Origin: Deltaproteobacteria bacterium
GTDB lineage: Bacteria; Desulfobacterota; Desulfuromonadia; Geobacterales; Pseudopelobacteraceae
Assembly: GCA_021781535.1 (NCBI GenBank)
Contig: JAJXWO010000001.1
Span: forward strand, 62,001-126,000
Reading direction: 5' to 3'
Length of the DNA: 64,000 nucleotides
Translations under genes and position numbers: made by a program
The notes under the pieces: model-generated
What the model saw: the letters and a program-made list of their open reading frames with translations, nothing else
The model's database searches: none
Told to the model about the DNA's origin: nothing
In this document: positions 61,126 through 63,818 of the stretch, piece by piece
How the letters are laid out: each line of letters begins with the position of its first letter
Numbering within the stretch: the first letter of the stretch is position 1

Positions 61126-61689
61126 ATGGGAAAATCTATACTGATTTGTGACGACGAACCGCTTATTAGAATGAGTTTGAAGAGCATGCTGGCCGATCTG
61201 GGGTTCGATGAAATACTTGAATGCGGCGACGGTACCAAAGCCGTGGAGTTGGCTTTGGGGTGCTTTCCGGACATGGCGATTCTGGATGTTTCCATGCCCG
61301 GCCTGGACGGGATAACCGCTGCAATCGAGATCAGAAAAAAGTTGAAAATCCCGATCATGCTGCTGACTAGCGCGTGCGACAGCGCGACTGTAAAACGGGC
61401 ATCGGCAGGCGGAATTGCCGCTTTTTTAACCAAACCGCTTCGGCAGCAGGATCTGCTGCCTGCCATCGAACTCGCTCTGCAGCATGTTGAAGAGGTTGAA
61501 ACTCTCAAAGAGAAAATCGATGACCTGCGCGAGCTTATTGAAAACCGCAAGATAATTGAAAAGGCCAAAGGGCTTTTGATGGAAAAGAACCGCGTCTCCG
61601 AAGCCGAAGCCTATAGAGTCATGCAGAAGACGGCGATGGATAAACGCAAAACGCTGCTGCAGGTTGCGGCCGCGATTTTGAAAGGGTAG
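61126..61689 (+). CDS. ANTAR-domain response regulator (antitermination type)
   Basis: The protein has 187 residues. A receiver (about 4-120) with ICDDEP, MAILDVSMPGLDG (phosphoacceptor) and TKPL is followed by an ANTAR domain (about 130-187) with ENRKIIEKAKGLLMEKNRVSEAEAY and the RVMQKTAMDKRKTL tail. ANTAR proteins bind paired hairpins in leader RNA and prevent termination. In Geobacter sulfurreducens an ANTAR regulator (GnfR) controls nitrogen-fixation genes. The neighbouring draG and nifB make a similar role plausible here. GGAGGGAAA precedes ATG 61126. Confidence 0.88.
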   Translation: MGKSILICDDEPLIRMSLKSMLADLGFDEILECGDGTKAVELALGCFPDMAILDVSMPGLDGITAAIEIRKKLKIPIMLLTSACDSATVKRASAGGIAAFLTKPLRQQDLLPAIELALQHVEEVETLKEKIDDLRELIENRKIIEKAKGLLMEKNRVSEAEAYRVMQKTAMDKRKTLLQVAAAILKG

Positions 61690-61746: not shown

Positions 61747-62652
61747 CTACATCGTTCTTCCCGCCGGACTTGCCGCCACCAGGCGCTCAACCATGATTTC
61801 AATTTCGGCAATAACCGTGCTGTCCATCTTCTTTATCCAGCGCTTTGGTATCGCTTCCATCCCATAATATGCCCCCGCAAGCATCCCGCAGATTGCGCCG
61901 GTTGTATCGGCATCACCCCCCTGGTTAACCGTCCCGACCAGACAGTCCTCAAAACTTTTCCCGAGAAAAAACCAGTGGAACACGGTCTGCATGGTATCCA
62001 CGATATAGCCGGTGGCGAGACCGCGGTATGGCTCAAAGTTAAAGGTGGGAAACCTGGCCACCAGTCCGTCAACATGGCGCCGCAACCGGCTTTTACCGGC
62101 CCCGCAGATAGTCATGTGGAGCAGCTGTCCCAGGCAGAGGCAGGCGGCATCAGATACCGGGTTGTTATGGGTGATGTGGGCCTGCTCAATCACGTATTTC
62201 TTGAGCAACTCTTCGTCAGGAAGCGAAAAAAGTGCGGCCGGCAGGATGCGCATGGCCGCTCCGTTTCCCGCGTCCCATTCGTTGGGCGGGGATTCGAGCT
62301 GGCCTTTGAGCATATAGGCACGGATCCCTTTCCGGCAGGTATCGCCGCAATCGACCGGCCGGGATTTAAGCCAGGTGGCAAAATTGTCGGCAACCGCCTC
62401 GGTTGACCACGCCTGGTTTTTTACAATGGCCCGGGCAATACAGAGTGCCATCTCGGTGTCATCCGTCACCTGCCCCGCTTTCAAGCGCAGCCAGCCACCA
62501 CCGCTAATGTCCCGAAATGTGCCGTATTTTGCGGCAATTTCTGTTGCTGTCATGAATTCGAGCGTGGCGCCCAGTGCATCGCCGATTGCCATGCCGATAA
62601 AGGCGGCTCGGGCACGGTTGCGGATTTCATCGAGATTGTACTGGTTGAACAT
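61747..62652 (-). CDS. draG: ADP-ribosyl-[dinitrogenase reductase] hydrolase
   Basis: The protein has about 301 residues. The ADP-ribosylglycohydrolase metal motifs are GQVTDDTEMALC near the N-terminus and NQGGDADTTGAICGMLAG near the C-terminus. The DraG-specific stretches ISGGGWLRLKAGQVTDDTEM and ITHNNPVSDAA are very close to known DraG. DraG removes ADP-ribose from nitrogenase reductase and so reactivates it. DraT is not in the window. The ATG at 62652 is chosen over 62724, which lacks homology. Confidence 0.92.
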   Translation of the reverse strand: MFNQYNLDEIRNRARAAFIGMAIGDALGATLEFMTATEIAAKYGTFRDISGGGWLRLKAGQVTDDTEMALCIARAIVKNQAWSTEAVADNFATWLKSRPVDCGDTCRKGIRAYMLKGQLESPPNEWDAGNGAAMRILPAALFSLPDEELLKKYVIEQAHITHNNPVSDAACLCLGQLLHMTICGAGKSRLRRHVDGLVARFPTFNFEPYRGLATGYIVDTMQTVFHWFFLGKSFEDCLVGTVNQGGDADTTGAICGMLAGAYYGMEAIPKRWIKKMDSTVIAEIEIMVERLVAASPAGRTM

Positions 62653-62677
62653 GGACAGCCTTTCTTTCAGAACGCGT

Positions 62678-62704
62678 AAACACAGAGGCACAGAGTCACG
62701 GAGG
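62678..62704. repeat. Left copy of a dispersed inverted repeat
   Basis: AAACACAGAGGCACAGAGTC followed by ACGGAGG. The reverse complement occurs at 62819-62842 with 20 of 22 bases shared over the core. This CACAGAG-type sequence resembles short repeats seen in many Geobacter intergenic regions. Confidence 0.55.
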
Positions 62705-62757
62705 TAATGCAATTCGTAAACCACATTAAATGCATAAATTTAGTGCAGATCTGACTG

Positions 62758-62793
62758 TTGTGGAACAAGAACCTCGGCGTGCCACAATTTTTT
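62758..62793 (+). terminator. Terminator-like hairpin in the nifB upstream region
   Basis: TTGTGG and CCACAA form a 6-bp stem around an 18-base loop, followed by six T. A weak terminator, 155 bases before nifB. Confidence 0.4.
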
Positions 62794-62818
62794 CAGAAGC
62801 CTCGAAAGTACGATTTTT

Positions 62819-62842
62819 CTGTGTCTCCGTGCCTCTGTGTTT
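62819..62842. repeat. Right copy of the dispersed inverted repeat
   Basis: CTGTGTCTCCGTGCCTCTGT followed by GTTT, the reverse complement of 62678-62704. Confidence 0.55.
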
Positions 62843-62889
62843 AATTGTGTCTAAGCTGGCACATTCTATGCTGTATCACTTCCAGCAAT

Positions 62890-62933
62890 GGCAACGACGC
62901 CCGTGGGATACCTTCCTGCGGGCGTTTTTATTT
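62890..62933 (+). promoter_or_regulatory. Candidate ANTAR hexaloop overlapping an intrinsic terminator before nifB
   Basis: GGC-AACGAC-GCC (62890-62901) is a 3-bp hairpin with a six-base loop having A at position 1 and G at position 4, as ANTAR proteins require. It overlaps the left arm of ACGCCCG (62897-62903)...CGGGCGT (62919-62925), which is followed by TTTTATTT. The hairpin and the terminator cannot form together. A second hexaloop, TCG-AAAGTA-CGA (62802-62813), lies 76 bases upstream. The terminator ends 16 bases before the nifB ATG. Confidence 0.5.
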
Positions 62934-62948
62934 CGGAAGGAGAAACCC

Positions 62949-63818
62949 ATGGCAACTGCATGCGAGATGAAGAATAAAATTCAGGGGCACCCCTGTTTTG
63001 GCGGCAATCATCACAAAAACGGCCGTATGCACCTGGCCGTAGCTCCCAAATGCAACATCAAATGCGGCTACTGCACGCGCAAGCATGACTGCGCCAACGA
63101 ATCCCGTCCCGGCGTGACGAGCCGTTTGCTGACTCCGCAAGAGGCAATCGTAAAGGTCCGCGAGGTAATGGCCAGTCCGATAGCAGGTCCGATTATCAAG
63201 GTTATCGGCATCGCCGGTCCCGGGGACCCGCTTGCGAACGAAGAGACTTTCGAAACGTTTGAGCTGGTAAAGAAGGAATTCCCTGACCTGATGCTCTGCA
63301 TGAGTACCAACGGTCTGTTATTGCCGGAATCGATTGATTGTCTGTACGAATTGGGACTTCATAGCCTGACCGTTACCATCAATGCCATCGATCCTGAGGT
63401 CGGTGCCCGGATCTATCGTCATGTAATCTATCACGGCAAACACTACACCGGTGTGGAAGGTGCCAAAATCCTCATTGCCAACCAGTTTGAAGGTCTCAAG
63501 CGCGCCGGTGAACTGGGGCTGACGATCAAAGTGAATTCGGTGCTGGTGCCGGGCGTCAACGACGAGCAGATCCCGCTGATTGCCGCCAAGGTGAAGGAGT
63601 TGGGAGCTTTTGTGATGAACATCATGCCGATCATCCCGCAGGCTGATTTTGCTGATATCGAGCCACCCAGCGAAGCCCGCATGGCCGAGATCAGAAAAAC
63701 AAACGAGGGCATAATAGGCCAGTTTGCCCACTGCAAACAGTGCCGGGCAGATGCCATCGGGCTTATCGGTCAGGATCTGAATATGACGATCGCCGAGGCG
63801 GCCTGTCCCACTACATGA
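62949..63818 (+). CDS. nifB: Nitrogenase cofactor biosynthesis radical SAM protein NifB (core form)
   Basis: The protein has 289 residues. HPCF (14-17) starts the conserved region, RMHLAVAPKCNIKCGYC carries the radical SAM cysteines (Cys35, Cys39, Cys42), and HDCANESRPGVTS follows. The product makes NifB-co, the iron-sulfur-carbide core of the nitrogenase cofactor. It lacks the NifX-like C-terminal domain of longer NifB proteins. GGAAGGAG precedes ATG 62949. No other nif structural or assembly gene is in the window. Confidence 0.95.
   Translation: MATACEMKNKIQGHPCFGGNHHKNGRMHLAVAPKCNIKCGYCTRKHDCANESRPGVTSRLLTPQEAIVKVREVMASPIAGPIIKVIGIAGPGDPLANEETFETFELVKKEFPDLMLCMSTNGLLLPESIDCLYELGLHSLTVTINAIDPEVGARIYRHVIYHGKHYTGVEGAKILIANQFEGLKRAGELGLTIKVNSVLVPGVNDEQIPLIAAKVKELGAFVMNIMPIIPQADFADIEPPSEARMAEIRKTNEGIIGQFAHCKQCRADAIGLIGQDLNMTIAEAACPTT

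Follow-up and report, generated by a model that had tools for sequence, protein, structure and literature searches.

A candidate single-hexaloop ANTAR antitermination leader behind a sigma54-type promoter at nifB

Results

The 64,000-nucleotide stretch of DNA analysed here (the window, at its full length) carries a gene for a REC-ANTAR response regulator, draG and a short form of nifB, and the region that leads into nifB contains a sigma54-type promoter element, a single hexaloop hairpin (P2) and an intrinsic terminator (Table 1). draG, on the opposite strand, separates the ANTAR gene from nifB. An Rfam search of the whole window at the gathering threshold returned tRNA alone, and thus no known riboswitch at that threshold. 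The host genome (G000) comprises 3.8 Mb in 133 contigs and is 95% complete and 8.9% contaminated.

Table 1. Features at the nifB locus, with positions counted from the first letter of the window.
Feature	Position	Strand	Basis
REC-ANTAR response regulator, likely GnfR-type antiterminator	61126-61689	+	Pfam Response_reg and ANTAR
draG, dinitrogenase reductase-activating glycohydrolase	~61747-62724	-	TIGR02662, 458 bits (cut-off 337)
sigma54 -24/-12 element, TGGCACATTCTATGC	62857-62871	+	10/12 consensus positions
Predicted transcription start (+1)	62883	+	sigma54 geometry, 12 bases past the C of the -12 GC
Single hexaloop hairpin P2, GGC-AACGAC-GCC, at +8	62890-62901	+	A1 and G4 present
Intrinsic terminator stem-loop, mutually exclusive with P2	62896-62926	+	13-pair stem, T-rich tail
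U-tract, TTTTTATTT	62925-62933	+	Sequence
nifB, short form, 289 aa	62949-63818	+	TIGR01290, 341 bits (cut-off 343.65); radical SAM

The product of the ANTAR gene is the sole ANTAR match in the host genome, and phmmer aligns it over its full length with Rv1626 (1s8n) and EutV (6wsh/6ww6). EutV is described as contacting RNA through Arg142, Lys143, Lys147, Lys149, Glu160 and Tyr164, with Glu146 pairing with Arg142 across the dimer (PMC8934654). All seven residues are identical in the window protein (R142, K143, E146, K147, K149, E160 and Y164), which combines a receiver and an ANTAR domain with the RNA-contact residues of a EutV-type regulator. An earlier note on this DNA had suggested that this protein acts on a leader in front of nifB; the retained contact residues and the single genomic match support it as the likely partner. 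Among distinct aligned sequences spanning all seven EutV positions, the Tyr164 position is Tyr in 40/40 own, own-family or nifB-linked sequences and Phe in 32/33 sequences from loci of three other families of the order (f2-f4; the family of the window is f1). In 30 of 52 related loci, the available flank shows the ANTAR gene upstream of nifB; at the others, the flank is short or the gene is elsewhere.

These 52 loci come from a NifB protein search and, together with the window, make up a set of 53 nifB leaders. The search found 58 loci, of which six were left out: one because its contig begins at the gene (L030), three as second nifB-like genes that are about 70% identical (L056, L057, L065) and two as distant (L063, L064). 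The five left-out loci with an upstream region have neither the promoter nor the hexaloop described below.

Alignment of the relatives' nifB leaders revealed a shared upstream sigma54 element, TGGCAC-N6-TGC. In the window, GG at -24 and GC at -12 are separated by 10 bases. An element scoring at least 9/12 is present in 52/53 nifB leaders, with 1.22 expected from shuffled sequences; L054 is the leader without a match. A search for sigma70-type promoters between 62600 and 62960 found none. From the geometry of the element, we infer that nifB transcription starts at approximately 62883. The earlier note had listed a start downstream of 62890 as evidence against its leader, and the predicted start falls upstream of that position. 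A sigma54 promoter has been mapped by primer extension at nifEN of G. sulfurreducens (PMC2725144). The region ahead of the element also holds an inverted repeat pair, TCTCCGTGCCTCTGTGTT, at 62679-62696 (-) and 62824-62841 (+), with 2 and 0 mismatches, respectively, and 0.02 expected in the window. In the nifB leaders of several relatives, CTCCGTG or CTCTGTG strings that resemble it stand ahead of the sigma54 element.

Downstream of the promoter, the P2 hairpin reported in the earlier note was confirmed, with A1 and G4 in its loop and its 3' part in the left arm of the terminator. The terminator pairing (62897-62903 with 62919-62925) is as described there, and our scan extends it to the 13-pair stem. 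This stem-loop is the minimum-energy fold of 62870-62935 and is far more stable than the P2 fold; as its left arm includes the 3' part of P2, the two structures exclude each other. A GGC-A1..G4 hexaloop hairpin occurs within 150 nt of the start codon in 53/53 nifB leaders, where 0.45 would be expected from shuffles, which supports the proposal of an ANTAR-type antitermination leader in front of nifB. Two features of the dual-hexaloop definition of ANTAR targets (Ramesh 2012) are seen here: an A1/G4 hexaloop whose stem has 3 bp or more, in all 53 nifB leaders, and overlap of the hexaloop with a terminator left arm, in the window and in 52/53 f1 leaders. The minimal motif of Walshe 2022, a single hexaloop, is also present in the window leader.

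All 53 aligned P2s share GGC, A1, A2, G4 and the base that opens the 3' arm, but these hairpins were chosen by a motif that already demands GGCAA and G4, and the unbiased figure is 53/53 against 0.45 expected. The loop reads AACGAC in 29 leaders; AACGGC, AACGAT and AACGAA in 5 each; AATGGA in 3; AACGGA and AACGAG in 2 each; and AATGAC and AATGAA in 1 each (P2 of L016, loop AACGAG at +6, was assigned by hand). The 3' arm is GCC in 52 and GTT in 1. Comparison among relatives, as the earlier note had proposed, shows no compensatory changes in the P2 stem, which is G-C/G-C/C-G in 52 leaders and has two G-U pairs in one; its pairing is unproven by covariation. RNAalifold recovered only the 3-bp P2 stem from the nifB leaders because terminator loop lengths vary, and terminators were consequently tested leader by leader.

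For this purpose and for the search for further hairpins we used a broader collection. It holds 112 distinct promoter-to-hexaloop leaders, recovered with a stricter pattern from 120 loci fetched from the order; because P2 is fixed as GGCAANGRNGCC in this pattern, the set is uninformative on P2 conservation. A terminator that uses the 3' part of P2 as its left arm was found in 52/53 leaders of f1, 6/6 of f2, 21/21 of f3 and 27/32 of f4, with 6.2, 0.8, 3.3 and 4.6, respectively, expected from shuffled downstream DNA. The leaders that failed were L207 (nifB, f1), L170 (a chance hit) and four Geomonas-type nifV leaders. In these f4 nifV leaders (L172, L199, L201 and L202), the hexaloop follows a sigma54 promoter without a U-tract terminator, and control there might be translational instead. 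The gap from promoter to hexaloop ranges from 12-15 to 71 nt with preserved terminator overlap, which ties the hexaloop motif to the terminator rather than to the promoter.

The earlier note had paired P2 with an upstream hexaloop, TCG-AAAGTA-CGA at 62802-62813. Its letters are present, but a role in the leader is not supported. The sigma54 element begins 43 bases past the end of this hairpin, which places it outside the predicted transcript, and the exact 12-mer is absent from the loci of all 52 relatives. Any Watson-Crick A1/G4 hexaloop with a 3-bp stem was found within 132 nt before the promoter in 7/52 leaders, a chance level given 5.1 expected. In the window itself, the corresponding region (62725-62856) holds two Watson-Crick A1/G4 hairpins against 0.10 expected (P = 0.005; with G-U pairs allowed, 0.41 are expected and P = 0.06), which we take as coincidence given their lack of conservation. 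Promoter position and non-conservation led us to reject a dual-hairpin model built on 62802-62813. Of the two hexaloops, only the downstream one is thus conserved in relatives, and the 76-base spacing that the earlier note had flagged as its weak point ceases to be a problem.

ANTAR targets of the dual type carry an upstream hexaloop (P1) joined to P2 by a short linker (Ramesh 2012), an arrangement of which neither the window nor the f1 leaders show a clear case. In the window, 7 nt separate the predicted +1 from P2, which leaves no room for P1. P2 starts at +5 to +15 in 41 of the 53 nifB leaders, too near +1 for a second hairpin to fit. It lies at +28 to +32 in six leaders from Geomonas and relatives (L050-L053, L055, L058); a P1-like hairpin is visible in these, with a loop that deviates from A1/G4 in L052 (GACGAC) and in L055 (AAGAAA), and also in L054, which lacks a promoter match. 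In the five leaders with P2 at +42 to +52 (L027, L033, L034, L039, L046), no clear P1 was seen by eye.

A scan of the broader collection for a hexaloop hairpin between +1 and P2, at a score of at least 11 and omitting two chance hits (L170 and L211), found none in 52 f1 leaders, where 1.8 were expected; f2 had 1/6 (0.3 expected), f3 7/21 (0.8) and f4 16/31 (1.2). A looser A1/G4 score gave 1/53, 0/6, 5/21 and 14/32 for f1 to f4, with 0.42, 0.08, 0.19 and 0.26 expected; the sole f1 match, L245, is a weak A1/G4 candidate. Nor was a disguised P1 above chance in own-family leaders, whether sought as an A1/G4, G4-only or any hexaloop or with any loop of 4-8 nt (for the last, 5 observed at a score of at least 11 and 7.0 expected), in a scan that could miss a bulged or unusual-loop P1. 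The P1 of f3 and f4 takes the form ..AC-[A/G]NNG NN-GT.., for example GCAC-AACGAA-GTGC, and is present at nifH, glnB/K and a gene whose secreted product matches no Pfam family. P1 was found in 0/7 f4 nifV and nifE leaders, and P1 with G4 in 0/9 f3 nifV, nifE and nifX leaders, with one any-loop candidate (L150). Single- and dual-hexaloop leaders thus coexist in the order. Several own-family leaders, nifE included, carry a block resembling TTTTCGCGAATA that starts 5-15 nt ahead of P2 and is not a hexaloop hairpin; it was seen in L210, L226 and the matched strings of G081, G120 and G121.

In the host genome, sigma54-hexaloop leaders precede nifB (hexaloop at +8), nifV (+16), nifH (+50), nifK (+34; its -24 reads AGGC) and nifX (+26), with genes named by PF00142 (nifH), TIGR01286 (nifK), TIGR02660 (nifV) and TIGR02663 (nifX). 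Leaders of nifE were found in relatives (L210, TIGR01283). At C21:142405-147533 of this genome (L066, L082), nifK is preceded by a leader of its own and begins about 3.7 kb past the end of nifD; nifHD and nifK are thus not one simple operon.

The promoter-hexaloop pattern is widespread in the order, in counts that include chance matches, some in coding DNA: with a gap of 14-44 it matches in 131/141 genomes (70/76 in the own family) and with a gap of 45-75 in 119/141 (65/76). The reversed pattern for the 14-44 gap matches in 22/141 genomes, and an off-register control with promoter spacing one base short in 31/141. An ANTAR domain was detected in 129/141 genomes of the order. Two genomes of f3 (G011 and G012, genus g13; 99-100% complete) have no ANTAR domain match, and among the matches listed their protein search gave receiver-length alignments only; both keep promoter-hexaloop-terminator leaders (L154, L155, L183, L184).

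Discussion

We propose that the nifB leader is a sigma54-driven, ANTAR-responsive attenuator, part of a single-hexaloop antitermination system that spans the nif genes, and we put the probability of this reading at roughly 70%. RNA polymerase would start near 62883, 7 nt ahead of the hexaloop. When the regulator is inactive, the terminator would fold and transcription would end about 50 nt from its start. The regulator, presumably phosphorylated under nitrogen limitation, could then act as a GnfR-type REC-ANTAR protein that binds and stabilises the hexaloop as it emerges from polymerase; the stabilised hexaloop would remove the left arm of the terminator and permit read-through into nifB. The same arrangement, one hexaloop and no P1, would serve nifH, nifV, nifK, nifX and nifE in the window's family, and the sequence patterns at these genes are most likely explained by nif-wide antitermination in which the ANTAR protein acts through one hexaloop. 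More broadly, the nif regulon of the whole family may depend on single-hexaloop ANTAR antiterminators located in the first few to 60 nt of sigma54 transcripts; P1 would have been discarded, and the dimer would capture the antiterminator hairpin directly. We lean slightly towards this view.

A second hexaloop could be supplied in trans, by a dimer that bridges two nascent transcripts or through the use of a second dimer, which would make the leader functionally a two-hexaloop switch. In the EutV-RNA crystal each dimer does hold two hexaloops from separate RNA molecules, but the authors of that structure deem trans binding unlikely given the time scale of transcription (PMC8934654), and we consider it improbable here. 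It is likewise improbable that the GGCAANGRNGCC motif is read as DNA or by another RNA-binding protein: a stem that shows no covariation could be read as sequence, but the motif holds its position relative to the terminator and not the promoter, A1 and G4 are the ANTAR-specific bases, and other families of the order place a canonical P1 before the same P2. That the leader is a constitutive attenuator, with a relic hexaloop no longer needed by the ANTAR protein in the window's family, would accord with the absence of P1 throughout that family and with the leaders that G011 and G012 retain without a detected ANTAR gene; given that the non-terminator bases GGC, A1, A2 and G4 are kept in 53/53 nifB leaders, and that the ANTAR gene persists with its contact residues, we judge it quite improbable. 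Very improbable is a canonical dual-hexaloop leader carried by a longer RNA that starts at a promoter further upstream. The two A1/G4 hairpins before the window's promoter do exceed shuffles, but 62802-62813 is unconserved, no sigma70-type promoter was found nearby (62600-62960), and the spacing would be 76 nt, whereas eut antitermination was abolished in vitro by an extra 20 nt (PMC8934654) and failed in vivo with a linker of 14 nt (PMC3369931).

Read as a single-hexaloop attenuator, the nifB leader differs from E. faecalis eutP in having one hexaloop, at +8 of a sigma54 transcript. The eutP leader has P1 and P2 on a 5-12 nt linker, and both hexaloops, needed in vivo, and their spacing are reported as required (PMC3369931, PMC8934654). 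The two systems are alike in their REC-ANTAR regulator, in an A1/G4 hexaloop that excludes an intrinsic terminator and in identical RNA-contact residues. Actinobacterial ANTAR RNAs share the A1/G4 hexaloops but are described as dual stem loops whose linker spans 2-25 nt, and many lie at ribosome binding sites (PMC8164766). The nitrogenase ANTAR regulon predicted for Pelobacter carbinolicus, of the same class, likewise has substrates at several nitrogenase units but was found with a dual-hairpin model (PMC3369931). Such a model cannot find single-hexaloop leaders; dual-hairpin search models would undercount ANTAR regulons.

In G. sulfurreducens, Ueki and Lovley reportedly described in 2010 the GnfK/GnfR system, in which an ANTAR regulator serves a subset of nif genes with leader terminators and sigma54 promoters. 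Compared with that system, the window's family has its ANTAR gene beside nifB. The G. sulfurreducens genes are gnfR = GSU2822 and gnfK = GSU0941 (PMC7962754).

In the EutV work of Walshe 2022, one hexaloop is the minimal binding motif, P1 is interpreted as recruiting the dimer to polymerase in time, and single hexaloops are expected where this time limit is absent, for which bioinformatics is called for (PMC8934654). The nif leaders are single hexaloops under exactly the polymerase time limit for which that work keeps P1 necessary. As putative natural antiterminators that lack P1, found across many species and in front of essential nitrogenase genes, they make the necessity of P1 testable. In the mostly open-access literature searched, we found no description of single-hexaloop antitermination leaders, a weak negative; the comparison draws on PMC3369931, PMC8934654, PMC8164766, PMC7962754, PMC11934962 and PMC2725144.

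Slow escape of sigma54 polymerase, a high GnfR level or higher affinity through Tyr at the G4-stacking position may have allowed P1 to be lost. This residue is Tyr in the single-hexaloop family and Phe in its mostly dual-hexaloop relatives, and Tyr would give the loop an additional hydrogen bond; resting on one clade contrast, the residue is only a lead. Outside the order, where any pattern match occurs in 33/98 genomes and many matches are in coding DNA, P1-like inverted repeats were seen by eye in a sample of the class (e.g. G147, G151, G156, G162, G175, G189 and G231). Their presence in several matches there suggests that the dual form is the older one and that P1 was lost later. Three further leaders from outside the order (L276-L278) have a GGCAATGRTGCC hexaloop with no evident U-tract, together with a sigma54-like element, and precede an ammonium-transporter-like ORF (named by eye).
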